A stretch of 64,000 bases of DNA from Methylobacterium sp. WSM2598 (GTDB lineage Bacteria > Pseudomonadota > Alphaproteobacteria > Rhizobiales > Beijerinckiaceae). Shown here piece after piece: positions 10,862 through 38,236 of this stretch. Numbering within the stretch: position 1 is the first letter of the stretch; every line of letters begins with the position of its first letter. The stretch lies in NCBI RefSeq assembly GCF_000379105.1, contig NZ_KB900609.1, forward strand, positions 2,530,365 through 2,594,364, read 5' to 3'. A program made the position numbers and the translations under genes. Below the pieces are notes generated by a model. It did not search any database, was not told the origin of the DNA, and saw only the letters and a list, made by a program, of their open reading frames with translations.

Positions 10862-11500
10862 ATGGCCGGCACGGCGAAGCGAACGGATCCCAAGCTGTGG
10901 GAGCGGGTGAAGGCGAAGGTCACGCGCTCGAGCAAGGGCGGCAAGCCCGGGCAATGGTCGGCGCGCAAGGCGCAGGCCGCCGTCCACGACTACAAGGAGG
11001 CGGGCGGCGGCTACGTGGGCGCGAAATCTCCCGACAACCACCTGACCCAGTGGACCGAGGAGGAGTGGGGCACGCGCTCGGGCGCCAAGAGCGGCGAGAC
11101 CGGGGAGCGGTACCTGCCGAAGGCGGCCCGGGCGCGCCTCAGCCGGGGCGAGTACGCCCGCACCTCCGCCAAGAAGCGGGCCGACACCGCCAAGGGCAAG
11201 CAGCATTCGCGCCAGCCCGCCGACATCGCCGCCAAGACAGCCTCGGGGCGCAAGACAGCCTCGGGGCGCAAGACAGCCGCGGCGCGCAAGGCAGCCGCGG
11301 CGCGCAAGACGGCCTCGGCCCGCAAGACGGCCTCGGCCCGCGAGACGGCCTCGGCCCGCGAGACCGCGTCGGCGAAGCGCGATTCGGGCAAGGGCACGAC
11401 CAAGGCCGCCCTGCTGCGGGCCGCCCGCGCCCGCAACATCCCGGGCCGGTCGCGGATGTCGAAGGACGAATTGGAGCGGGCCCTCGGTGCGCGGGGGTGA
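10862..11500 (+). CDS. DUF5872 protein with a lysine/alanine-rich histone-H1-like tail
   Basis: A 212-residue basic protein. Residues 1 to ~100 form the DUF5872 region (KLWERVKAKVTRSSKGGKPG, WSARKAQAAVHDYKEAGGGY, LTQWTEEEWGT). Residues ~125-171 are eight six-residue repeats of the type KTASGR/KTAAAR/ETASAR. The end (TKAALLRAARARNIPGRSRM, then SKDELERAL) looks like a SAP/Rho-N-type nucleic-acid-binding helix pair. The composition suggests DNA or RNA binding; no function is known. The tail repeats come from an 18-bp minisatellite, so its length may vary between strains. Confidence 0.85.
   Translation: MAGTAKRTDPKLWERVKAKVTRSSKGGKPGQWSARKAQAAVHDYKEAGGGYVGAKSPDNHLTQWTEEEWGTRSGAKSGETGERYLPKAARARLSRGEYARTSAKKRADTAKGKQHSRQPADIAAKTASGRKTASGRKTAAARKAAAARKTASARKTASARETASARETASAKRDSGKGTTKAALLRAARARNIPGRSRMSKDELERALGARG
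11234..11374 (+). repeat. 18-bp coding minisatellite, eight units
   Basis: Units of the form AAGACAGCCTCGGGGCGC follow each other in frame inside the DUF5872 gene. Neighbouring units are identical or nearly so in pairs (1=2, 3 and 4 differ by one base, 5=6, 7 like 8), a pattern expected from recent stepwise duplication. Confidence 0.92.
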
Positions 11501-11536
11501 GGCGACGCCCGCCGCGCGGCGGCCGCGGCCCGGGCG

Positions 11537-11706
11537 TCATCCGACATCCGGTTGATGGCTTCGCCATCTCCCATTTCGGCCATGCGGATGTCGGCGTCGC
11601 TCAGGCGCCGCGCGGACTCGTGATCCGGTTGATGGCTTCGCCATCTCCGATGTCGGCCATGCGGATGTCGGCTTCGCTCAGGCGCCGCGCTCAGGCGCCG
11701 CGCAGG
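11537..11706. repeat. dispersed repeat family 1, array at a convergent gene junction
   Basis: Two copies of an ~80-bp unit. The outer arms GACATCCG (11543) and CGGATGTC (11585) flank an inner hairpin GATGGC-TTC-GCCATC. The unit then continues with a shared CGGCTTCGCTCAGGCGCC-type tail. The second copy repeats the hairpin and the tail near 11627-11690. The same family recurs near 17632 and 31829. The array lies between the stops of two convergent genes, so it may act as a two-way transcription stop. Confidence 0.85.
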
Positions 11707-11709
11707 CTC

Positions 11710-11750
11710 GTGATCCGGGATCCGCGTCGATCAAGCGGATCCCGGATCAC
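11710..11750. terminator. strong hairpin overlapping the caspase-like gene's stop
   Basis: GTGATCCGGGATCCGC (11710-11725) pairs perfectly with GCGGATCCCGGATCAC (11735-11750) around a 9-base loop. The stop codon of the minus-strand caspase-like gene lies in the right arm. It can serve as a terminator in either direction, although no T-run follows. Confidence 0.75.
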
Positions 11751-13186
11751 TCCTCGCCCACGCTCTCGCGCAGGCGCTGCAGCTGCGGGCGCAGCTCCTG
11801 GCAGCTGAGGTCGCGCGCGAAGCGGTCGATCGCCGGCACGTCGCGGCTGTTGCGCAGCTGGGCGAGGATCTGGGCCTCGCGCTCGCAGGCGCCCGGGGTC
11901 GCCCGCGCCGTGCTCGTCGTCAGCGGCTCGCCGGGGATCGGCGGGATCGGGTCGGGCAGAACGGAAGGCGGTGCGGGCGGACGCACCGCCTCGATCAGCC
12001 GGGCGAGCTGCGGGCGCAGCGCCTCGCAGGTGAATTCGCGCTCGAAGCGCAGCACTGCCTCCGGCGCGCGGGTCGCGCGCAGGCGGGCGAGGGTCTGGGC
12101 CTCGCGCTGGCAGGCCCCGTTGTGCTCGGCGCCGGGCGGGGAAGCGGCGGGGCCGGGCGCGACGGCGGCGGTCGCCGGGTCGGTGCCGACCGGCCGCGTC
12201 TGCGGGAGCGGCCGGCGGGCCGGCTCGCCGGCGGGCGGCGCGGCCGGGCTGCCCGTGAGCTTGGCGACCTGGGCGCGGGCCAGATCCGCGTAGAAGCCGG
12301 CCGGATGCGCGGCCAGGAAGGAGGACCACGCCTCCCGCGTGCCGACGCGCTCGGCGAATTCATAGTCGCGCCGCATCTCCTTGGGGTCGCCCTCCGGGTC
12401 GGCGGCCCTGAGGTCCGGCACCAGCGCCATGGTGGCGCCCCCGAGGGAGCCGTAGACGAAGGGCTCCTGCTTGCCGCCGGTGAGGCGCAGAACCTCGTCG
12501 CGGACCCGCCCGAAGGCGACCCGCACGTCGAGGCCCGGCGCTGCGAGGTGCTTGAGCATCGCCGTCGTGAAGGGGCTGTGGTCGCCGCCGCCGTCGTCGG
12601 CGACCGACCCGGCCTTGGCCGCGAAGGCCACGAGGGTGTCGCTGATCAGCGGGTCCACCTTGGCGAGGCCGTTCGCCACGCCCCGGATGCTCACCATCCG
12701 CTGCATGCCGACGTTGAACGGGTTGTTGCGGCAGGCATCCAGGATGACGAGGCGCAGGCGCCGCGCCGGCTCGATCGCGCGGATCACCCGCTCCAGCGAC
12801 AAACCCTCGTCCTCGACGTCGAAATCGGTCCGCAGGCGGGCATCGGTCGGGATCAGGTAGTTGATCCCCGCGACCTCGATGCCGTGGCCGGCGAAGAACA
12901 CCACCGCGACGTCCGCGTCGCGGCTGGTCTGCATGAATTCCCGCACGGTGCGCTTCAGCTCGACCGTGCCGAGATCCTGCCTCAGGTCGACCGACTCGAA
13001 GCCCGCCCGGCGCAGCATCTCCGCCATGGCCGAGGCGTCGCGGCCCGGATTGGCGAGCACCGGCACGGAGCGGTAGGCGGAGTTCCCGATCACCAGGGCG
13101 ACGCGCCGGTCGGCCGCCGAGGCCCCCGTCCCGGTCAGGAGGCATGCCGCCAGGATCAGGAGCGGTCCCAGTCTCCACCGCAACAT
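11747..13186 (-). CDS. secreted caspase-like (C14) cysteine protease with duplicated C-terminal modules
   Basis: 479 residues; the start is placed at MLRWRLGPLLILAACLLTG, which has a GAGGAGGCGAGG ribosome site and a signal peptide. The C14 peptidase domain spans ~26-255: strand RRVALVIGNSAYRSVPVL, catalytic His101 in FFAGHGIEV and Cys152 in VILDACRNNPF, so the dyad is intact. After a Pro-rich linker come two copies of a ~45-residue module (CQREAQTLARLRAT and CEREAQILAQLRNS, each with a second Cys), perhaps a disulfide-linked helical repeat. The substrate and trigger are unknown; it acts outside the cytoplasm. A paralogue with lost catalytic residues lies 1.6 kb away. Confidence 0.9.
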   Translation of the reverse strand: MLRWRLGPLLILAACLLTGTGASAADRRVALVIGNSAYRSVPVLANPGRDASAMAEMLRRAGFESVDLRQDLGTVELKRTVREFMQTSRDADVAVVFFAGHGIEVAGINYLIPTDARLRTDFDVEDEGLSLERVIRAIEPARRLRLVILDACRNNPFNVGMQRMVSIRGVANGLAKVDPLISDTLVAFAAKAGSVADDGGGDHSPFTTAMLKHLAAPGLDVRVAFGRVRDEVLRLTGGKQEPFVYGSLGGATMALVPDLRAADPEGDPKEMRRDYEFAERVGTREAWSSFLAAHPAGFYADLARAQVAKLTGSPAAPPAGEPARRPLPQTRPVGTDPATAAVAPGPAASPPGAEHNGACQREAQTLARLRATRAPEAVLRFEREFTCEALRPQLARLIEAVRPPAPPSVLPDPIPPIPGEPLTTSTARATPGACEREAQILAQLRNSRDVPAIDRFARDLSCQELRPQLQRLRESVGEE

Positions 13187-13487
13187 CCTCGCCTCCTCGC
13201 GGCGCTCCCGCGCGACGCGCTCCCCCGCTTCTCCGGGACGGGCCCGGCCCGATGGACGGTTCCCCGCCCCGATACCGCGACCCAGCATGCGCCGGTTGCG
13301 GCCATGAACGCAATCAACTGTGACGTGCTCAAGCCCGCTCCGGCCGGCGGCGGGCGCTCAAGCCCGCTCCGGGCGGCGGGCGCTCAAGCCCGCCCCGGGC
13401 GGCGGGCGCTCAAGCCCGCTCCGGGCGGCGGGCGCTCAAGCCCGCCCCGGGCGGCGGGCGCTCAAGCCCGCCCCGGGCGGCGGGCGC
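13187..13487. other. intergenic region mostly filled by a tandem repeat
   Basis: The part next to the caspase-like gene (13187-13326) should hold its promoter; no clear box was seen. The rest is the 26-bp repeat array listed separately. Frames that cross the array on the plus strand only translate the repeat and are not regarded as genes. Confidence 0.6.
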
Positions 13488-13508
13488 TCAAGCCCGCCGC
13501 CGGCCGGG
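13327..13508. repeat. 26-bp tandem repeat, seven units
   Basis: Seven copies of a unit beginning GCTCAAGCCCG(C/T)(T/C)CC and ending with GGGCGGCGGGC. Inner units are almost identical, differing mainly at one T/C position; the outer ones are diverged. There are no spacers, so this is a minisatellite and not a CRISPR array. Its right end reads into the 3' end of the 41-residue minus-strand frame and provides its stop codon. Confidence 0.93.
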
Positions 13509-13613
13509 ATGCGGGATGATCCGCGCCGGGGCCGGCTGCGGCTCGACCGGCTTGTCGGGAAACCACATCTTCACCGTCGTCCCCGTGCGGGGGTCCAGGA
13601 TGGTGAGGGTCAT
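13488..13613 (-). CDS. small hypothetical protein, 41 aa
   Basis: The frame has a strong ribosome site (GAGGAGGCG) before its ATG and encodes MTLTILDPRTGTTVKMWFPD followed by a Pro-rich, basic tail. The N-terminal half looks like a beta hairpin of a genuine small protein. The last residues and the stop come from the 26-bp repeat, so the C-terminus may be an acquired extension. It is not recognised. Confidence 0.5.
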   Translation of the reverse strand: MTLTILDPRTGTTVKMWFPDKPVEPQPAPARIIPHPGRRRA

Positions 13614-13691
13614 GGACGCCTCCTCTGTCGCTGATGCGGACCATTCCATCCCCCGGCCCGGGCGGATGTGATGGACCGCACCCGGGGCGCC

Positions 13692-14576
13692 TCAGCCGTA
13701 GCGGCCCCGCCGCGGCGCCCGCGCCCGGGGCGGCCGGCCCGAGGCGGTGACGAGGACGCGGATCGGCTTGGAATAGATCGGCGGATCGTGCGGGACGTGG
13801 TCCTCGTCGGCGAGCAGCAACTGCAGGGTGTGGCGGCCGAGCGGCAGCGTCACGCGCGCCTCGGTCTGGCCCGCGCCGAAATGCAGGTGGTTGAAATCGT
13901 TGGGAATCGGCCGGTCGAAGGGCGGCAGCGGCGTGTCGATGAGCAGGTGGTGGTGGCCCGTATTGGCCTTGACGATCCCGGCCGGCGCCACGCCCATGTT
14001 GATGAGACCGAACCGGACCAGGACGGTGCGCGGCACCGTGGCGCCGTTCACCGGGCTCGCGATGTAGACCTTGGCGCCCTTGGCCGAGGCCCGGCGCTGC
14101 CCCGGCGGTCTCGGCCCGGCCGCGACGCCGCCGGCGCCGCCCTCCCGCACCACCACCCGGATCTTCTCCGACATGATCGGGGGCGAATGCGCGATGTGCT
14201 TGTGGTCGCCGAGCAGGAGCTGCAGCGTGTGCTCGCCCGGAGGCAGGTTCAGCTCGGCCTCGGTCTGACCCGCGCCGAAATGCAGGTGGTTGAAGTCGTT
14301 GGGGATCGGCTCGGAGAGGTTCGGCAGGTCGGTATCGACCAGCAGGTGGTGGTGGCCGGCATTCTCCCGCGGCACGCCCGCCGGCGCCACGCCCATGCCG
14401 TGCAGGCCGAAATGGATCGTGGTCCGGGTCGGCAGCACGCTCCCGTCCTTGACGTCGACGAAGTAGACGCTCGCGCCGGCCGGCGCCGGGGACGGTCCGC
14501 CCCGCGGCGCCTCCTGGGCGATGCCGGGGTGCGGCAGGAACAACAGCAGTGCCGGCAACAGCCTGGTGAGTCGCAT
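13692..14576 (-). CDS. secreted protein with two DUF4399 domains
   Basis: 294 residues; the start at MRLTRLLPALLLFLPHPG has a GGAGGAGAGG ribosome site and a signal peptide. Two homologous domains (about 36-143 and 168-275) each carry GHHHLLVD/GHHHLLID, IPNDFNHLHFGAGQTE and a THTLQLLL-type strand. DUF4399 proteins are single-domain in most cases I know, so this looks like an internal duplication. The conserved His clusters could bind metal in the periplasm; that is inference. It is divergent from the caspase-FGE fusion across 215 bp. Confidence 0.9.
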   Translation of the reverse strand: MRLTRLLPALLLFLPHPGIAQEAPRGGPSPAPAGASVYFVDVKDGSVLPTRTTIHFGLHGMGVAPAGVPRENAGHHHLLVDTDLPNLSEPIPNDFNHLHFGAGQTEAELNLPPGEHTLQLLLGDHKHIAHSPPIMSEKIRVVVREGGAGGVAAGPRPPGQRRASAKGAKVYIASPVNGATVPRTVLVRFGLINMGVAPAGIVKANTGHHHLLIDTPLPPFDRPIPNDFNHLHFGAGQTEARVTLPLGRHTLQLLLADEDHVPHDPPIYSKPIRVLVTASGRPPRARAPRRGRYG

Positions 14577-14791
14577 CGCCCTCTCCTCCGGGTCAGCCAC
14601 GACGCCGAAATGTCACCCAATAATCGGTCCCACGCAAAGCACAGTGCCTCTTTTTACTGCTCCTCGTTCAGTCGAGATGTGCTTTGATAAGCGGCAAAAT
14701 GCCGCAATCACAGTTTTTCCCTACCACGCCGGAGCGATTCGTTGTTGGCTGTGCTGCGGGTCGCGCGATGACCTGGGTGTGCGAGTCGAGC
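14577..14791. promoter_or_regulatory. AT-rich divergent promoter region with an inverted repeat
   Basis: This gap between two divergent secreted-protein genes is clearly AT-richer than the genes. It contains GCGGCA-AAA-TGCCGC (14691-14705), a perfect 6-bp inverted repeat that could be an operator. Both genes probably start transcription here. Confidence 0.5.
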
Positions 14792-16399
14792 ATGGGACGG
14801 ACCGGACCGGCCGGTGCGGCGCTTGCGGCGGCGAGGAGCGTCGTCCTCCTCCTGTGCCTCGTCCTCGGGCCGGGACCGGCGGCGGCGCAGGGCCGCGCGG
14901 TGGTCCTCGAAGCGAGCCCGCGCATCGCTCTCGTCATCAGCAACTCGGCCTATTCGGGCGGGGGTGATCCCCTCGGGACCAACCGCTCCGCCCGCCTCGT
15001 CGCGGAGGAGCTGGACCGGCTCGGCTTCGTGGTGGAGGCCGGGGAGAATCTCACCAAGGCGCAGATGCAGCAGCGCGTCGCCGAGGTCGCGGCCCGGATC
15101 GGGCGCAGCTCCGTGGTGGTGTTCTTCTACAACGGCTACGCGATCCGCTCGGGCCAGCAGAATTTCCTGATCCCGGTCGGGGCCAGCGTGCGCTCCGAGG
15201 TTCAGGTGCGCCAGGAGGGGCTCGACCTCGACTCGATCCTCGCCGAGTTCACCCGCCGCGGGGCGGCGACCCGGATCGTCATCGTGGACGCGGCCCGGCG
15301 CAACCCGTTCGAGGAGACGTTCCGGCGCCCGCCCGAGGGCTTGGCGGCCCTCGACATGCGCGACGGCACGCTGGCGATCTTCAGCGCCGCCCTCGACAAG
15401 CCGCCGGAGGAGGCCGACGACGGCGGCCTGTTCGTGCGCGAGCTCCTGCGCCAGATCGCGGCCCCGGGCGTCAGCGCCGAGCAGGGCTTCGCGCGCACCC
15501 GGATGGCGGTGGCGCGGGCGACCGGGGCGCGGCGCGTGCCCTGGGTCTCCTCCTCCCTCCTCGACGACGTCTTCTTCGCGACGCCGGGCGCGGCGCCTCG
15601 CCCGCCGCCCGCCGGCCCGCCGCCGGTGGCCGAGGCGCCCTCCCCGCCCCCGGCCTCCGAGCGCGCGGCGGGCGAGGGGCCGAGGCCGGGCGAGACCTTC
15701 CGCGACTGCCCGACCTGCCCGGAACTCGTCGTGGTGCCGGCGGGCGACTTCGTGATGGGCGGGGACGCGGAGTACGAGAAGCCCGCCCACCGGGTGACGA
15801 TCCGGCGCCCCTTCGCGATCGGCCGGCACGAGGTGACCTTCGCGCAGTGGGATGCCTGCGTGGCCGCGGGCGGCTGCAAGGGCGACATCGACGACCACGG
15901 CTTCGGGCGCGGCGACCGACCGGTCATCGACGTGAGCTACGACGACGTGCAGGGCTACCTGCGCTGGCTGTCCGCGCAGACGCGCCGGACCTACCGCCTG
16001 CCGAGCGAGGCGGAGTGGGAATACGCGGCCCGCGCGGGCGCGACCTCGCCGTTCTGGTGGGGGCCGGCGGTGGGCAGCGGGCGGGCGAATTGCGAGGATT
16101 GCAGCCAGGCTCCGTCCCACCGCACCGTCGCGGTGGGCTCGTACCGCCCCAACGCCTTCGGGCTGTTCGACACCGCCGGAAACGCCGCCGAGTGGGTCGA
16201 GGATTGCTGGAACATGAGCTACCGGGGGGCGCCGACCGACGGCGCGGCGTGGCGCACGGGCCAGTGCGACCTGCGCGTCCTGCGCGGCGGCTCCTTCACG
16301 GCCCGCTCGGCGCTCCTGCGCTCGGGCTCGCGCTTCCGCTACGACCACGACATCCGCTACTACGCCAACGGGTTCCGGGTGGTGCGGGAGCTCCCCTGA
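14792..16399 (+). CDS. secreted caspase-fold / FGE-sulfatase-fold fusion lacking catalytic residues of both domains
   Basis: About 535 residues. The start at MGRTGPAGAALAAARSVVLL gives the best signal peptide; an ATG 24 bp upstream is possible. Residues 42-265 have the C14 fold (RIALVISNSAYSGGGDPLG), but the catalytic His is Tyr116 in FFYNGYAI and the Cys is Ala168 in VIVDAARRNPF. After a Pro-rich linker an FGE/SUMF1-type domain (~305-533) shows VVPAGDFVMGG, GRHEVTFAQWDACVA, YRLPSEAEWEYAARAG, GLFDTAGNAAEWVEDCW and LRGGSFTARSALLRSG. The copper-binding cysteines of true FGE after GGSF are missing. It is therefore probably a binding or regulatory pseudoenzyme. Confidence 0.9.
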   Translation: MGRTGPAGAALAAARSVVLLLCLVLGPGPAAAQGRAVVLEASPRIALVISNSAYSGGGDPLGTNRSARLVAEELDRLGFVVEAGENLTKAQMQQRVAEVAARIGRSSVVVFFYNGYAIRSGQQNFLIPVGASVRSEVQVRQEGLDLDSILAEFTRRGAATRIVIVDAARRNPFEETFRRPPEGLAALDMRDGTLAIFSAALDKPPEEADDGGLFVRELLRQIAAPGVSAEQGFARTRMAVARATGARRVPWVSSSLLDDVFFATPGAAPRPPPAGPPPVAEAPSPPPASERAAGEGPRPGETFRDCPTCPELVVVPAGDFVMGGDAEYEKPAHRVTIRRPFAIGRHEVTFAQWDACVAAGGCKGDIDDHGFGRGDRPVIDVSYDDVQGYLRWLSAQTRRTYRLPSEAEWEYAARAGATSPFWWGPAVGSGRANCEDCSQAPSHRTVAVGSYRPNAFGLFDTAGNAAEWVEDCWNMSYRGAPTDGAAWRTGQCDLRVLRGGSFTARSALLRSGSRFRYDHDIRYYANGFRVVRELP

Positions 16400-16494
16400 T
16401 CCGCACCGGGCCGGGGCCGGCCTGCGCCACATCGCCCCTTGCGGCGGGCCGGGCGGCGGGGGATGGGCAGGCTTTCGTCCCCGAGGAGCCCCCG

Positions 16495-17625
16495 ATGTCC
16501 CCCGAATCCGCCGCCCCGTCGCCCGAGGAGGCCGTCGCCGCGATCAGCCGCTGGCTCTCGGTCGAGAGCCCGACCCACCACGCGGCCGGGGTCAACCGGA
16601 TGATGGACCTCGTCGCCGACGAGGCCGAGGCGACCGGCATCCCGTGGGAGCGGATCGGCGGCACGCAGGGCCTCGGCGACAGCCTGATCCTGCGGGCCGG
16701 GCCGCGGACCGGGGAGCCCGCCCTCCTGGTCCTGTCGCACCTCGACACGGTCCATCCGGTCGGCACCCTGGCGGAGCTGCCGGTGCGGGTCGAGGGCGAC
16801 CGGCTCTACGGGCCGGGCGTGTACGACATGAAGGGCGGGGCGTGGCTCTGCCTGCAGGGCTTCATCGCCGCGGCGAAGGGCGGGCAGGCCCGGCGGCCCC
16901 TCGTCTTCCTGTTCACGAGCGACGAGGAGATCGGCTCGCCGACGACCCGCGGGCTGATCGAGGATCTGGGGCGGCGGGCCGAGGCGGTGCTGGTGACCGA
17001 GCCCGGCCGGGACGGCGGCCGGGTGGTCACGGGCCGCAAGGGCGTCGGGCGCTTCGACATCCACGTGGAGGGGCGCCCCGCCCATGCCGGCAGCCGCCAC
17101 GCGGAGGGGCGCAACGCGATCCGCGAGGCCGCCCGGCTGATCCTGGAGATCGAGGCCCTGACCGACTACGCGCGCGGCATCACCACCACGGTCGGGCTGG
17201 TCCAGGGCGGCACCGCCGAGAACGTGGTGCCGCAGCATTGCCGCTTCACCGCGGACCTGCGGGTGGTGACGGAGGAGGACGGGCGGGCCTGCGTGGCGCG
17301 CCTCCGCGGCCTGCAGGCCGCGCCCGACTTCACCGTGACGGTGACCGGCGGCATGAACCGCCCGCCCTATCCGCGCTCGGACCTGACCGGCCGGCTCTTC
17401 GCGCAGGCGCGCGCCATCGCCGAGCAGGAGCTCGGCCTCGCCCTCGGCGAGGTGCCGCTGACGGGCGGCGGCTCGGACGGGAACTTCACGGCGGCGCTCG
17501 GCGTGCCGACCCTCGACGGCCTCGGCATCGACGGGGACGGCGCCCACACGCTGTGGGAGTACGGCCTGATCTCCTCCATCGCGCCGCGGCGGCGGCTGAT
17601 GCAGCGGATGCTGGAGACGCTGTGA
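16495..17625 (+). CDS. M20-family metallopeptidase (carboxypeptidase G2-like)
   Basis: A 376-residue cytoplasmic dizinc hydrolase. Metal ligands and catalytic residues are visible: LSHLDTVHP (His, Asp), GPGVYDMKGG (bridging Asp), FTSDEEIGSP (general base Glu), VTEPG, and AHTLWEYG near the C-terminus (last His). The dimerisation domain has GRPAHAGSRHAEGRNAI. The substrate is probably an N-acyl amino acid or peptide and cannot be fixed from sequence. The ATG has GAGGAG just upstream. The stop TGA lies inside the GTGATCCG motif of the following repeat array. Confidence 0.92.
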   Translation: MSPESAAPSPEEAVAAISRWLSVESPTHHAAGVNRMMDLVADEAEATGIPWERIGGTQGLGDSLILRAGPRTGEPALLVLSHLDTVHPVGTLAELPVRVEGDRLYGPGVYDMKGGAWLCLQGFIAAAKGGQARRPLVFLFTSDEEIGSPTTRGLIEDLGRRAEAVLVTEPGRDGGRVVTGRKGVGRFDIHVEGRPAHAGSRHAEGRNAIREAARLILEIEALTDYARGITTTVGLVQGGTAENVVPQHCRFTADLRVVTEEDGRACVARLRGLQAAPDFTVTVTGGMNRPPYPRSDLTGRLFAQARAIAEQELGLALGEVPLTGGGSDGNFTAALGVPTLDGLGIDGDGAHTLWEYGLISSIAPRRRLMQRMLETL

Positions 17626-17790
17626 TCCGAAATCCGACGGATTGCGTCGCAATGCGGATGTCGGCTTCGCTCAAGCGCCGCGCCGGCTCGTGATCCGACG
17701 GATTGCGTCGCAATGCGGATGTCGGCTTCGCTCAAGCGCCGCGCCGGCTCGTGATCCGACGGATTGCGTCGCAATGCGGATTTGGCGCAG
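17622..17790. repeat. dispersed repeat family 1, tandem 61-bp array at a convergent junction
   Basis: One slightly variant copy (from 17622), one full 61-bp copy starting GTGATCCGACGGATTGCGTC (17690) and a truncated third copy (17751 to about 17780). Each has the small hairpin ATTGCG-T-CGCAAT in the place where the 11.5 kb copies have GATGGC-TTC-GCCATC, followed by the shared CGGATGTCGGCTTCGCTCA stretch. It fills most of the gap between the convergent peptidase and HD-GYP genes. Confidence 0.92.
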
Positions 17791-17841
17791 CCCGCGCCCC
17801 GTCCGGGCCCCCTCGGGGTCCGGGAACGAAGGGCCGGGCCG

Positions 17842-18888
17842 TCACGCCGCCCGCGTCGCCGGCCGGTCCTCCACGAGGGCGACCACCTCGTCCCAGCGCG
17901 ACAGGAAGGCCCACACGCAGGCCGGGTCGAAATGCCGGCCCGCCTCCTCCTCCAGGAAGGACCGGGCCCGGTCGAGCGGCCAGCCCGGCTTGTAGACCCG
18001 GTCCGAGATCAGCGCGTCGAACACGTCCGCCACCGCGGTGATGCGGCCCGGCAGCGGGATCGCCTCGCCTTTCAGGCCGCGCGGGTAGCCGGTCCCGTCC
18101 CAGCGCTCGTGGTGGGTCAGCGCGATCTCGGCGGCGAGGCGCAGGAGCCGGGACGGGCTGTCGCTCAGCATCCGGTAGCCGCGCAGGGCGTGCTCCATCA
18201 TCTCGACCCGCTCGGCCTCGCTCAGGGGCCCGGGCTTGCGCAGGATCGCGTCCGCCACCCCGATCTTGCCGATGTCGTGCATGGTCGAGGCCAGCGCGAT
18301 GTCGTTCGCCTCCTCCTCCGGGAGGCCGAGCCCGTCCGCGATGGCGATGACGCAGCCGGCCACCCGGGTGAGGTGGCCGCCCGCCTGATCGTCCCGGTAC
18401 TCCGCCGCCAGCATCAGGCGGTGGATGATCTCCCGCTCCCGCTGGGCGCTCTGCGCGTGCACCCGCCGCATCTCGCGGGCGAGGTCCTCCGCCTCCGCGG
18501 CGCCCGCCTGGGCCCGGGACAGGGCGACGAGGTTGCGGGCGCGGATCTGCAGGTCGAACCCGTCGAGGGGCGGCAGCACCACGTCGGTGGCGCCCGCTTC
18601 GAGGGCGCGCCGCCGCGCCGCGGCCGGCTCGCCGCTGCCCAGCACCATCAGGGAGGTGCGCACGAGGTGCGGCAGGCGGCGCAGGTCGCGCACGAGGCCG
18701 ATCGCGTCGAGGCGGGGCCCGTCCTCGATCAGCACGAGGTCGGTGCCCTGATCCGCCAGGGCGCTGCGGGCGGCCTCGGCCTCGCCGAGGACCAGGGTGG
18801 CGTAGGCGGGGGCGAAGAGGCGCGAGAGCTGCGCCGGATCCGGCCGTGCCGTGACGATGACGACGGAGGGGTCCGCGGCGGAAGTCAT
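17842..18888 (-). CDS. receiver / HD-GYP cyclic-di-GMP phosphodiesterase
   Basis: 348 residues. An N-terminal receiver-like domain (~1-120) has LVLIEDGPR at the phosphoacceptor strand. A coiled linker follows (AREMRRVHAQSAQREREIIH), then the HD-GYP domain: MHDIGKIGV (His204-Asp205), THHERWDGTGYPRGLKG (GYP at 267-269) and AVADVFDALISDRVYKPGW. All metal-binding elements look intact, so hydrolysis of c-di-GMP is expected. It is an RpfG-like response regulator without an adjoining kinase. The product should lower c-di-GMP, opposing the cyclase at 26.5 kb. Confidence 0.93.
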   Translation of the reverse strand: MTSAADPSVVIVTARPDPAQLSRLFAPAYATLVLGEAEAARSALADQGTDLVLIEDGPRLDAIGLVRDLRRLPHLVRTSLMVLGSGEPAAARRRALEAGATDVVLPPLDGFDLQIRARNLVALSRAQAGAAEAEDLAREMRRVHAQSAQREREIIHRLMLAAEYRDDQAGGHLTRVAGCVIAIADGLGLPEEEANDIALASTMHDIGKIGVADAILRKPGPLSEAERVEMMEHALRGYRMLSDSPSRLLRLAAEIALTHHERWDGTGYPRGLKGEAIPLPGRITAVADVFDALISDRVYKPGWPLDRARSFLEEEAGRHFDPACVWAFLSRWDEVVALVEDRPATRAA

Positions 18889-29838: not shown

Positions 29839-30978
29839 GTGACCGCAGCCGAAGGCCAGAAGACCATCGCGTTCGTCGTCACGGAGGATTGGTTCTTCGC
29901 CTCGCACTTCCTGCCCATGGCCCGGGCCGCCGTCGCGGCCGGGCACCGGGTCGCGGTGGTGACGCGGGTGCGCGACCATCGCGGCGCGATCGAGGCCGCG
30001 GGCGCCCAGGTGGTGGCCCTGGAGGCCGAGCGGTCGAGCCTGAACCCGATGAGCGCGGGCTACGCCGCAGGCCAGCTCGCCGCGCTGCTGAAGGCCCTGC
30101 GGGCCGACCTCGTGCACTGCGTCGCGCTGCGCGGCATCCTGGTGGGCGGCGCCGCCGCCGCCCTCGCCGGCATCCCCCGGCGCGTCTACGCGCTCACCGG
30201 GCTCGGCCTCCTGGGCGCCCGGCAGGACCGCGCCGCGCGCCTCGCCCGGGGGGCGCTGCGCCACCTGATCCGCGGGCCGCTGGAGACCCGGGCGACCCGC
30301 TACCTCGTGGAGAATCCCGACGACGCGGCGCTCCTCGGCCTCGACCCGGCCGGGAGCCGCGTCACCCTGGTGGGCGGCGCCGGGGTCGATCCGCGGGCCT
30401 TCGCGCCGACGCCGCTGCCGCCCCTGCCGCCCCTGCGGGTCGCCCTCGTCGCCCGCATGCTGTGGTCGAAGGGCGTCGACACCGCCGTGGAGGCCGTGCG
30501 CCTCGCCCGCGCCGGCGGCGCGCCGGTCGAACTCGCCCTCTACGGGGCGCCCGACCCCTCGAACCGCCGGGCGATCCCGGAGGCGACCCTGCGGGGCTGG
30601 GCCGGCGACGGCGTGGCGTGGCACGGGCCGACCGCGGACGCGGCCGGCGCCTACGCGGCCGCGCAGGTCGGCTGCCTGCCCTCCCGCGGCGGCGAAGGCC
30701 TGCCCCGTACCCTGCTCGAAGCCGCCTCCTGCGGCCGGGCCATCGTCACCACGGACGTGCCGGGCTGCCGCACCCTCGTGCGCGACGGGATCGAGGGCCG
30801 GCTCGTCCCGCCGGACGACCCCGCCGCCCTCGCGGCCGCCCTGGCGCGCCTCGCCGCCGACCCGGCGCGGGTCGCCGCCATGGGCGAGGCCGCGCGCCGG
30901 CGCATCCTCGAGGGCGGCTTCACCGAGGAGGCGGTGGCCTCGGCGGTCGCCCGCCTCCACGCCGCGATGCTCGCGTGA
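29839..30978 (+). CDS. glycosyltransferase family 4 protein
   Basis: 379 residues from a GTG start. A GT-B enzyme: the N-terminal half has FVVTEDWFFASHFLPMARAA and the donor-binding half LRVALVARMLWSKGVDTAVE, then CLPSRGGEGLPRTLLEAASC (E-x7-E motif) and VTTDVPGCRTLVRDGIEG. This is typical of enzymes that add sugars to extracellular polysaccharide or lipid carriers at the inner face of the membrane. The sugar is unknown. The methyltransferase gene follows after 35 bp on the same strand. Confidence 0.92.
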   Translation: MTAAEGQKTIAFVVTEDWFFASHFLPMARAAVAAGHRVAVVTRVRDHRGAIEAAGAQVVALEAERSSLNPMSAGYAAGQLAALLKALRADLVHCVALRGILVGGAAAALAGIPRRVYALTGLGLLGARQDRAARLARGALRHLIRGPLETRATRYLVENPDDAALLGLDPAGSRVTLVGGAGVDPRAFAPTPLPPLPPLRVALVARMLWSKGVDTAVEAVRLARAGGAPVELALYGAPDPSNRRAIPEATLRGWAGDGVAWHGPTADAAGAYAAAQVGCLPSRGGEGLPRTLLEAASCGRAIVTTDVPGCRTLVRDGIEGRLVPPDDPAALAAALARLAADPARVAAMGEAARRRILEGGFTEEAVASAVARLHAAMLA

Positions 30979-31013
30979 CGCCGCGCCCCGTCCCGGATCC
31001 GGAGGCGTCCGCC

Positions 31014-31673
31014 ATGCGCGAGCCGCTGCGCTTCATCCGGGCCAACACCGCCCTGCGGCCGGTCCCGCACGCGCCGGAGATCCGCCTCCACGTCGCCGAC
31101 GAGGCCACGGAGCTGTGGAGCCGCACCGAGGAGGAGCTGGGCGAGATCGGCCTGCCCCCGCCCTTCTGGGCCTTCGCCTGGGCGGGCGGCCAGGGGCTCG
31201 CCCGCTACGTCCTCGATCACCCCGAGACGGTGCGGGGCGCCCGGGTGCTCGACTTCGCCTCCGGCTCCGGCCTCGTCGCCATCGCGGCCGCGCGCGCGGG
31301 CGCCGCCGCCGTCGAGGCGAGCGACCTCGATCCCTTCGCGCTGGCGGCGATCGGCCTCAACGCCGCCGAGAACGGCGTCGCCGACCGGGTCCGGGCCGTC
31401 GCCGGCGACCTCATCGGCCGCGACGAGGGCTGGGACTGCGTGCTCGCCGCCGACATCTTCTACGAGCGCGACCTCGCGGCCCGGGTCGGCGACTGGCTCG
31501 CCGCCCTGCAGGCGAGGGGGGCCCGCGTCCTCCTGGGGGATCCGGGCCGGGCCTACCTGCCGACGGCGCGGCTCGACAGGCTCGCCACCTACGCGGTGCC
31601 GGTGAGCCGCGCCCTGGAGGATGCCGAGATCAAGCGCACCGGGGTGTGGCGCTTCGCGCCGGACGGCGCCTGA
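31014..31673 (+). CDS. ETF beta-subunit lysine methyltransferase (METTL20/ETFBKMT family)
   Basis: 219 residues, class I SAM methyltransferase. [20 protein letters not shown] directly before the SAM loop [15 protein letters not shown], and the post-motif-[12 protein letters not shown], are signatures of the METTL20 family; these enzymes trimethylate lysines near the recognition loop of electron transfer flavoprotein beta and slow its reaction with dehydrogenases. PrmA, a relative, is longer and lacks this start. It has a GGAGG ribosome site. An inverted repeat follows the stop. Confidence 0.88.
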
Positions 31674-31819: not shown

Positions 31820-31936
31820 GAGTCATTCGACATCCGACGGATTGCGTCGCCATGCGGATGTCGGCTTCGCTCAGGCGCCGCGCTCGGGCGCCGCGCGGGC
31901 TCGTGATCCGGGATCCGCTGCGATCAAGCGGATCAC
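31820..31936. repeat. dispersed repeat family 1, single copy plus hairpin at a convergent junction
   Basis: Outer arms GACATCCG (31829-31836) and CGGATGTC (31855-31862) enclose GGATTGCGTCGCCATG. Then come CGGCTTCGCTCAGGCGCC and a doubled GGCGCCGCGC. GTGATCCG (31903) pairs with CGGATCAC (31929-31936), and the patatin stop codon lies in the right arm. The order of parts is the same as at 11.5-11.75 kb. Confidence 0.88.
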
Positions 31937-33075
31937 CCGTACATGGCGCGCAGGTCGAGGCTGCTCTCGCGCCCGACCGCGTCGAAATGCTGGTCGAGCC
32001 ACGCCCGCGCGGCCGCGCGCCCGGCGTCGCGCAGGCGCAAGAGGAACGGCCACTGCGCCTTGAGCTTCGTCGCCGCGGTGTAGTCGTCGAGTTCGCCGCT
32101 GCCGTCGATCCGGTGCAGCCGCAGCGGCCGGTAGCCCTCGGTCGCCAGCGCCCCCTCGTCGACCAATCCCTGCACGAAGTCGATCGCCCGCAATTCCCGC
32201 AGGAGATTGCCGTTGAAGGTGATCTCGTTCAGGCGGTCGCGTATCTCCTGGGGCGTGCGCGGCGTCTCGCGCCGCTCGACCGGGTTGATCTGGATCAGCA
32301 GGATGTCGCGGGTCTCGGCCCCGTGATAGAGGGGGTAGAGGGGCGGGTTGCCGAGATAGCCCCCGTCCCAGTAGGGCACGCCGTCGATCTCCACCGCCTG
32401 GAACACGGTCGGCAGGCAGGCCGAGGCCATGACGTGGTCGGCCGTCAGGTCGCGGCCCTCGAAGACCGCGATCTTGCCCGTCCAGACATTGGTGGCCGAG
32501 ATGAAGAGCGGCGGCGCGTTCTCGCGGCGCAGCGCCTCGAAATCCACCGTGTCGGTCAGCGCCCGCTTGAGCGGGTTGATGTTGAGCGGATTGGCCGCGT
32601 AGGGGCTGGCGAGGCTCGCCCAGACCTCGGCGAGCGGGGTGCGCCGCCACAGGCGCAGCATGCCGTCGAAGGCGCGCTGCTGGCTGCGCGGCAGGTCGCC
32701 GTCGAGGCTCACCTCCCGCCAGAAGGCTTCGAGCTGCGCCCGCGCGCCCTCGGGCCCGTCCTTCAGCCAGCCATGCGTCATCACCACGGCGTTCATCGCC
32801 CCGGCGCTCGCCCCGGTGATCGCCTCGAAGGCGAGGCGGCCGTCCTCGATCAGGGCGTCGAGCACGCCCCACGTGAAGGCGCCGTGGGCGCCGCCGCCCT
32901 GCAGGGCGAGGGCGATGCCCTTCTCGGCCCGCGGCCCCGCGAGGCGCCGGCCGGGCGACGCGTCCGGGCGGCTCCCGGGATCGCGGGCGGCCTCGACGCC
33001 GACCGGATCGGCCCCGACGGGGCCGGCGGAGGCGACGGCGACGGAGAGGCGGGTTCTGTCGAGCGTGTCGGTCAT
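31933..33075 (-). CDS. patatin-like phospholipase
   Basis: 380 residues. The Ser-Asp dyad is complete: oxyanion loop [13 protein letters not shown], nucleophile Ser90 in [11 protein letters not shown], Asp237 in YWDGGYLGN. The C-terminal ~90 residues ([40 protein letters not shown]) match the DUF3734 extension of alphaproteobacterial patatins, some of which act on polyhydroxybutyrate granules or lipids. No signal peptide is present, so it is cytoplasmic. The start [12 protein letters not shown] was chosen over a distant upstream ATG because the added head is Pro/Arg-rich. Confidence 0.92.
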
Positions 33076-36862: not shown

Positions 36863-38236
36863 TCACCCACCCGCCGCGACGCCGTCGAGCACCGCCAGGA
36901 TCTCGCGCCCGGTGTCGTACCGGGCGAAGCAGGCCGCCAGGGCGCGCGCCCGCGCCCGGTAGGCGGGCGCGTCGAGCACCGCGTCGACGGCCCGGCGCAG
37001 GGCAGCGGGCTCCTGGCCCGAAGCGGGACTTTGGCTCGAAGCGGGACTTGGGCCCGAAGCGGGACTTGGGCTCGAAGCGGGACTTGGGCTCGAAGCGGGA
37101 CTTGGGCCCGAAGCGGGACTTGGGCCCTCCTCGCGCAGGAAGATCCCGGCCCCCGACCAGCCGACGCGCGCCCCGACCTCGGCCTTGTCCTCGGTGAGCC
37201 CGGCCGAGACGATCGGCACCCCCGCCTGCAGGGCCGCCAGCACCGTGCCGTAGCCGCCATTGGTGACGAGGGCATCGACCCGCGGCATCAGCTCGGCGAA
37301 GGGCAGGAAGGTCGCCGCCCGCGCATTGGCCGGCAGCGGGACCCGGATCGCGTCCAGGGGCCGCCCGCCGGTCGTCGCCACCACGAGCACGTCGTCCCGG
37401 TCGGCGAGGGCGCGCAGCGTCGGCTCGACCAGCTCGCCGAAATCCTCGTTGGCGAGGGTGCCCTGCGTCACCAGGACGACGCGCGAGGCGCCGTCGAGGT
37501 CGGACCACCAGGCCGGACGAGGCCCGGAGACCGGCGGCGGGGGCAGCGCGCCGACGAAGCGGATCGAGGGCGGCAGCGGCGCGAAATCGTACTCGAAATC
37601 CGGGATCGTCAGCTGGATGACCGCGTCCGGCAGGGTGAGGATCGAGTGGGTCAGCGAGGCCGGCAGCCCCGGCAGTCCCATCCGGGCGAGCGCCGCGTCC
37701 GCCGCGGCGCGGACCGGGCCCGTGAAGGCGCGGTCGACCTGCGCCCGGATCGCCGCGTAGCGCGCCCGCTCGGCCTCGTCCCGCGCCGGGGGCAGGCCGG
37801 GGCCGAGCGGCGCGCCGTCCGGTCGGTCGAGGAACAGGAAGCTGATGTTGCAGGTCACCACCGGCGGCCGCTCCCGGCGGTCGAGGAGGAGCGGCAGCAC
37901 GCCGAGGAACAGGCTCCCGGCCACCACCGCGTCCGGCCGCTCGGCCGCGATCAGCGCGCGCAGGGCCTCGGCCTGGCCCGGCATGCTGTCGATGAAGCGC
38001 CGCTCGAATTCCCGCCGGCCGCGCTCCGGCCCGGGCGGCAGCGAGGTCTCGCGGTACTCGGGCGCGTGGTCGTCCGCGTAGGACACGCAGCGGAAACCCG
38101 CCGCCTCCACCCTCCCCCGCATCGCCGCGGAGGTGAGCACCACCACCTCGTCCCCGCGGGCGGCCGCGATCCGCGCCACCGCGAGCAGGGGGTTGACGTG
38201 TCCGGTCAGGGGCGTCGCCGCCAGGATGAGTTTCAT
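36863..38236 (-). CDS. UGT/MGT-type glycosyltransferase with an in-frame repeat insertion
   Basis: 457 residues, GT-B fold. The acceptor half starts MKLILAATPLTGHVNPLLAV; the donor half has VLVTQGTLANEDFGELVEPT, FLPFAELMPRVDALVTNGGY and GTVLAALQAGVPIV, like macrolide- or carotenoid-type glucosyltransferases. Where relatives run straight from the strand GAGIFL into the last helix (LRRAVDAVL), this protein carries residues 371-408 made of six PSPAS-like repeats, encoded by an 18-bp minisatellite. The insertion sits in a surface loop near the nucleotide-sugar site and may be tolerated. The acceptor is unknown. Confidence 0.9.
   Translation of the reverse strand: MKLILAATPLTGHVNPLLAVARIAAARGDEVVVLTSAAMRGRVEAAGFRCVSYADDHAPEYRETSLPPGPERGRREFERRFIDSMPGQAEALRALIAAERPDAVVAGSLFLGVLPLLLDRRERPPVVTCNISFLFLDRPDGAPLGPGLPPARDEAERARYAAIRAQVDRAFTGPVRAAADAALARMGLPGLPASLTHSILTLPDAVIQLTIPDFEYDFAPLPPSIRFVGALPPPPVSGPRPAWWSDLDGASRVVLVTQGTLANEDFGELVEPTLRALADRDDVLVVATTGGRPLDAIRVPLPANARAATFLPFAELMPRVDALVTNGGYGTVLAALQAGVPIVSAGLTEDKAEVGARVGWSGAGIFLREEGPSPASGPSPASSPSPASSPSPASGPSPASSQSPASGQEPAALRRAVDAVLDAPAYRARARALAACFARYDTGREILAVLDGVAAGG
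37020..37127. repeat. 18-bp coding minisatellite, six units
   Basis: Six head-to-tail copies of GAAGCGGGACTTGGGCYC (first copy with one extra change) lie inside the glycosyltransferase gene. All are multiples of three, so the frame is kept and the translation is a Pro-Ser-Pro-Ala-Ser repeat. Confidence 0.95.

Follow-up and report, generated by a model that had tools for sequence, protein, structure and literature searches.

A repeat that meets the stop codons of genes in Methylobacterium is probably a mobile element of this genus that is MITE-like, short, and non-coding, inserts at TGA, and leaves TGA on both sides of itself. Direct support comes from the exact coincidence of element ends with stop codons, the matching triplets at the two ends, a preference in the flanking bases, unchanged C-termini in the orthologues of two genes, and recurrence in other species. 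The unit, about 106–136 bp and often partly repeated in tandem, would have imperfect inverted ends of the form T-A/C-CG-NNN-TCCG-..-GAT, each foldable into a hairpin. Insertion would occur at the trinucleotide TGA within a weak symmetric context, GNNTGANNC, giving TGA on both sides (TCA on the other strand), and a transposase would make a 3-bp staggered cut, for which the IS5/IS1031 type offers the nearest known behaviour. In a genome of 74% GC, a TGA stop preceded by a GNN codon would fit this target and be a harmless place to land; the gene would keep its TGA and its protein, with a second copy of TGA beyond the element. More tentatively, the family may be mobile DNA whose recognition core is TGA itself, inserted in fixed orientation by an undescribed enzyme, with stop codons as harmless landing sites throughout the genome and a paired hairpin placed immediately after the stop.

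Such a target would provide a simple, countable reason why a compact genome can accommodate mobile elements by the hundred unharmed: they would land on the stop codon, and insertion would copy it. REP-like hairpins at gene ends would then be tied to an insertion preference and not to selection alone. If the enzyme were found, it could serve as a natural tool for inserting DNA just behind genes.

The repeat family and its sites in the window

The window, a stretch of 64,000 nucleotides from Methylobacterium sp. WSM2598, contains three sites at which the family adjoins genes (Table 1). The preliminary description had stated that the repeat overlaps a flanking stop codon at all three, and this holds: the M20, caspase-like, and patatin stops all lie at element ends, and within the octamer GTGATCCG or its complement, which occurs in 13 copies in the window against 4.0 expected. 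At the M20 and caspase-like stops, the leading G of GTGATCCG is a base of the last codon, and the element end consists of TGATCCG only. All three sites are located between convergent called genes. No Rfam family matched anywhere in the window at gathering thresholds. Other repeats in the window include tandem repeats of 26 and 18 bases (13320-13527, 11233-11376, and 36986-37129), unrelated to the element, and a 209-base direct repeat (13756-13964 and 14155-14363), the copies of which are 74% alike and 399 bases apart.

Table 1. Elements and adjoining genes at the three sites in the window.
Feature	Position	Strand	Remarks
Caspase-like (Peptidase_C14) gene	11747..13186	-	TGA stop 11747-11749; domain match
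Element A, more than one unit	11537..11749	+	End triplets TCA 11537-11539 and TCA 11747-11749, the latter being the caspase-like gene stop (TGA, - strand)
Element A 3' hairpin	11711..11749	+	TGA...TCA palindrome; RNA fold -34.7 kcal/mol, z -4.95
M20 peptidase gene	16495..17625	+	TGA 17623-17625 is the 5' triplet of element B; domain match
Element B	17623..17785	+	5' TGA 17623-17625 is the M20 stop; profile matches begin at 17632, 17693, and 17754; 3' end lost or degenerate
HD-domain gene, convergent neighbour at site B	17842..18888	-	Stop not at element end
Methyltransferase-like gene, convergent neighbour at site C	30975..31673	+	Stop of the counterpart in the nearest species is at an element end
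Element C, one unit	31823..31935	+	End triplets TCA 31823-31825 and TCA 31933-31935, the latter being the patatin stop; hairpin 3' arm 7 bases short
Patatin-like phospholipase gene	31933..33075	-	TGA stop 31933-31935; domain match

The family was followed in the genome to which the window belongs (G000, 7.67 Mb), in a second genome of the same species (G050), and in the nearest species (G030), within a whole-genome grouping of 111 genomes in one genus. The core motif was found in 394 copies at three or fewer mismatches, against 1 for the reversed control. Clusters of profile matches numbered 139 over 1.24 Mb of G000 and 153 over 1.62 Mb; loci L031-L090 were picked mostly for their repeat content, so the density in them does not represent the genome rate. 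Four of the 153 clusters had units on both strands and were left out, leaving 149 scored clusters, among which L056 and L057 represent a local duplication, so that at least one such pair is not independent.

Units have the layout TSA-T(A/C)CGACATCCG...GCGGATGTCGGCTTCGCTCAGGCGCCGCGCGGGCTYG-TGATCCG...CGGATCA. A single profile match was present in 92 of the 149 clusters and more than one in 57, and the 68 complete elements with a single unit are mostly 106-136 bp long; in being short, repeated, and non-coding they resemble MITEs. A palindrome forms the 3' end and occurs in G000 mainly in two versions, GGATCCGC...GCGGATCC (subtype G) and CTGTCCGGAC...GTCCGGACAG (subtype T). By-eye comparison of the 5' T(A/C)CGacATCCGgTTGAT with the 3' TCCGGGATCCGCTTGAT indicates that the inverted ends are imperfect. 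The palindromic unit, the high copy number, and the intergenic location are REP-like traits. Only 3 of 139 clusters lie inside a called gene, despite 16,977 free TGA/TCA triplets within genes in the same 1.24 Mb, as selection would give. A further element in G000 (L371:1040-1150) ends an IS4/5-type transposase gene inside its DDE domain, at profile position 169/200, and is apparently an in-gene insertion.

Coincidence with stop codons and matching end triplets

Gene stops were taken from a codon-usage gene caller written for this analysis. Across the 149 clusters (1.62 Mb of G000), a stop falls exactly on the end triplet at 62 of 122 complete 3' ends and at 20 of 142 complete 5' ends. Stops at other offsets within 30 bases number 7 at the 3' ends, one of them less than 7 bases away, and 21 at the 5' ends, none of them that close. 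The stops at these 82 ends are TGA in 81 cases and TAA in one, compared with 1211 TGA, 154 TAG, and 49 TAA among all called stops. The patatin hairpin lacks 7 bases, and the script therefore searched 7 bases too far along, so this site is not among the 62 of 122. In loci retrieved afterwards with a different aim, 8 of 14 clusters have a stop at an end, one of these 8 at both. Genes whose stops are hit were also sampled and are ordinary: 19 of 20 were submitted to Pfam (the other ran to a locus edge), and domains were recognized in 16 of the 19, including DnaB, FliP, and proline racemase, while the three without a domain are 57-73 residues long.

It is the end of the element, rather than the octamer, that coincides with the stop. 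A genome-wide count of octamers overlapping stops had been proposed as a check, and GTGATCCG alone proved a poor marker: 22 of 99 copies within elements and 14 of 152 elsewhere in the same 1.62 Mb overlap a stop. Two of the 14 outside overlaps are family hairpins missed or cut by the profile (L279 and L058). The hairpin at L279:3313-3351 in G000 is a solitary 39-base 3' hairpin directly at a gene stop, with the rest of the element absent.

The triplets at the two ends of an element tend to match. Among 117 complete elements, the pairs were TCA/TCA in 71, TGA/TGA in 12, TCA/TGA in 4, TGA/TCA in 3, and other in 27 (Fisher test on the four TCA/TGA classes, p 2.6e-9). Subtype T in the first sample gave TCA/TCA in 13, TGA/TGA in 11, TCA/TGA in 2, and TGA/TCA in none. 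Identical TNA pairs, as expected of a target site duplication, were present in 84 of the 117, including a TTA/TTA pair at a stop; the 33 without such a pair count against the mobile-element explanation. Since the end triplets match each other, they resemble the 3-bp duplication of a TGA target. These results bear out the earlier suggestion of a mobile-type repeat that sits precisely on the stop codons at the 3' ends of genes, with matching triplets of the kind an insertion would leave as its footprint. Of the empty sites and target duplications that it had called for, the duplications have their counterpart in these triplets, but no locus was found to have an empty counterpart with alignable flanks.

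Target choice, orientation, and the fate of the original stop

The preference for stops was compared with that expected from TCA/TGA sites in regions lacking an element, using the 83 elements with TCA or TGA pairs. Between convergent genes, 34 of 42 insertions were at stops against an expected fraction of 0.333 (p 3e-10). Regions with both genes on the plus strand gave 10 of 19 against 0.178, and those with both on the minus strand 10 of 16 against 0.225; divergent regions, which contain no stop, gave 0 of 4, and other regions 0 of 2. When sites were weighted by a symmetric profile built from the 29 non-stop insertions, the expectations rose to 0.565, 0.401, and 0.444 for the convergent, plus-strand, and minus-strand classes, and a surplus was left only in the convergent class (p 0.0015, compared with p 0.35 and p 0.21). 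The weak symmetric context GNNTGANNC thus explains much of the stop preference. It was present at 25 of 54 occupied stops against 198 of 812 free ones (p 0.001), and at 8 of 29 occupied non-stop sites against 273 of 2683 others (p 0.007). Single positions point the same way, with effects that are small and uncorrected for the many positions tested: G at -3 (39 of 54) and C at +5 (38 of 54) are enriched around insertions in stops, and C at +5 (17 of 29) around those away from stops.

The convergent surplus that persists after weighting is also what would be seen if selection, and not target choice, placed the element, the hairpin being a functional 3'-end structure such as a terminator, an mRNA stabilizer, or a REP-like regulator at the end of translation. 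We consider this unlikely. In its favour, most stop hits, 52 of 81, lie between convergent genes, stems vary between species yet remain paired, and REPs in E. coli located at most 15 nt from the stop can reduce translation, according to PMC12306157, citing Liang 2015. However, matching TGA triplets and the same orientation are also found away from stops, a family match is present at only 2 of 44 orthologue loci of other species, and just one of the three hairpin sites in the window, that of the caspase-like gene, folds better than shuffled sequences. A hairpin-coupled end of translation or transcription had been suggested in the preliminary description; a scan of 11400-18000 called no GC hairpin with a T run, as in an intrinsic terminator, at elements A and B, which speaks against it.

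Orientation differs between the subtypes. In subtype G it is nearly fixed relative to TGA, with 56 of 57 elements of the TCA type, and in subtype T it is 15 to 11. The subtype G bias includes 20 of 20 elements away from stops, and it therefore looks like a property of the insertion itself and not of the gene. A symmetric DDE insertion would not be expected to give such a fixed orientation, which counts against that part of the mechanism. A single-strand, hairpin-guided process (Y1/IS200-IS605, RAYT-like), or another orientation-fixed recombination beside TCA/TGA, could account for it; the terminal TCA would then be borne by the element and paired with the internal TGA where the 3' hairpin begins to fold, at its base. 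Hairpins are possible at both ends, and subtype G combines internal TGA with terminal TCA in 48 of 76 cases. Such a process nevertheless seems rather improbable: subtype T inserts either way, its internal TCA accompanying terminal TGA in 7 cases and TCA in 7, and some target preference is seen at both flanks. Furthermore, Y1_Tnp (PF01797) gave 0 matches in G000, a genome 93% complete, whereas the control was positive in 5 of 14 genomes, so the TnpA-REP (Y1/RAYT) transposase for which a search had been recommended was not found there.

Orthologues that lack the repeat indicate what became of the original stop. Patatin proteins in 28 other species have their C-terminus at the same residue, with TGA as the stop in 19, and M20 proteins in 16 other species end in ETL and then a stop, TGA in 13 (12 of 30 M20 loci, below 60% identity, having been dropped). 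Since orthologues without the repeat end at the same residue, the old stop was kept and not replaced, contrary to the claim that the repeat provides it. The M20 stop in G030 is TAG, not TGA, which counts against the mobile-element explanation. At the stop of the caspase-like gene, G000 and G030 each have an element, the stems of which differ, and the two proteins align through their final residue; two separate insertions would fit as well as a single old insertion with later turnover of the stem.

The two family matches at the 44 patatin and M20 loci are L210 in the species of genome G032, where an element with a different hairpin sequence begins at the patatin stop, and L193 in G030. The latter begins slightly beyond the patatin stop, in the stretch separating that gene from the methyltransferase gene, and has the reverse orientation; the methyltransferase-like gene has its stop at the 3' end of this element. 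A synteny test in G030 matched 3 of 16 query genes, one of which, a 44% match, was excluded as an orthologue.

That the element supplies a new stop, truncating or extending genes, is accordingly very improbable, and for the window genes it appears largely refuted by the alignment of C-termini to the last residue in the patatin, M20, and G030 caspase-like proteins. In its favour, the end triplet is the in-frame stop of all three window genes, the G030 methyltransferase-like match ends 5 residues before the end of the G000 protein, where the element begins, and the L371 element ends its transposase gene within a domain. Chance or a gene-calling artefact can be practically dismissed: the gene caller was home-made, but the peak at offset zero is sharp, Pfam domains are present in most sampled genes, and the pattern recurs in the 14 fresh clusters and in other species.

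Other genomes, the transposase, and related systems

The same architecture with different hairpin sequences occurs in five other species, where equal triplets were found in 16 of 18 element pairs; 12 of 30 loci in this set gave no end pair by pattern. Within the species, no simple presence/absence polymorphism was seen between G000 and G050 at 31 comparable sites, so that no insertion event was captured, a point against the mobile-element explanation. All 31 G000 clusters with both flanks in G050 hold element-length sequence between the flanks there, two of them mapping to one G050 place. The two genomes have all 31 sites in common, and the insertions are therefore older than their split. Unit number is still changing in the family: internal length differs by more than 25 bases in 5 of 31, and unit-number polymorphisms of ~35-98 bases are located at L051, L055, L054, L075, and L078. 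In the reverse comparison, 1 of 31 G050 clusters (L190:1939-2042) is in a region without alignment between the two genomes, and G000 has another element there; L190:1568-2094 in G050 and L075:18402-19930 in G000 differ in content, each with its own family element.

PF01609 gave 111 hits in two genomes, and none of the 19 loci examined was flanked by a pair of element ends; that no parent transposase turned up among them counts against the mobile-element explanation. A scan of fetched loci for paired ends up to 4 kb apart returned essentially only pairs made by family copies, the exceptions being two pairs (L073 and L082) of which one end falls outside the clusters, a third of this kind at L034, and another short family in G030. 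Loci of relatives of one window gene, the eleven closest named of which are Methylobacterium, were covered by one tblastn search and one profile scan, with three profile matches (L093, L094, and L099), and L091-L101 from this set were included in the paired-end scan.

The nearest known behaviour is that of the IS1031 subgroup of IS5, which is reported to prefer TNA targets and to leave 3-bp direct repeats, with one described insertion at TGA (PMC12016507). The 3-bp repeat at TNA targets is common to both, and the identical TNA pairs fit an IS5/IS1031-type duplication. Differences from IS1031 are that no transposase was found with the present repeat, that its ends are T(A/C)CGNNNTCCG with hairpins where the IS1031 paper prints a 17-bp terminal repeat, and that it has a clear bias to stops. 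The element is not filed as a member of IS5/IS1031, no linked IS1031-type transposase having been seen at the 19 of 111 PF01609 loci.

The repeat also resembles the Correia/NEMIS, RUP, and YPAL/RU-2 MITEs in being below about 200 bp and non-coding, with inverted ends and target duplication; most bacterial MITEs reviewed in PMC2229807 have TA ends and are A+T-rich, whereas this repeat is GC-rich with TGA at its ends. MiniMdi3, a MITE of M. extorquens in the same genus, is set apart by its description in PMC2680597 (~400 bp, ISMdi3-related).

REP, BIME, and REPIN sequences with RAYT are similar as high-copy intergenic palindromes near gene 3' ends; here, in contrast, no Y1 transposase was found in G000, end triplets match as in a duplication, and the overlap with the stop is exact. 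Rhizobium RIME and Brucella Bru-RS are alphaproteobacterial intergenic palindromic repeats, and the likeness to them is one of description only, sequence and target aside. A MITE-like repeat, TNA duplication, and REP-like hairpins by stops are known parts. A search of the open-access literature, with most subscription journals outside it, found no repeat family with the stop codon as its main landing site.

The second short family in G030 has ends TACGG(C/T)TTCCGGTTGATC, akin to the end of the family described here, and 94 end-like sites. At ten G030 places, its copies have equal TGA or TCA triplets in 5 and a gene stop at an end in 3. The copies at L268:1123-1408 and L257:4718-4971 have TGA/TGA or TCA/TCA triplets, and the 3' triplet at L257 is a gene stop. 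Two longer copies of 1.5-1.7 kb (L351 and L352) hold an IS481-type transposase gene, identified by Pfam on the copy in L323; considered as candidates for a parent IS, they were rejected, as they look like nested insertions.
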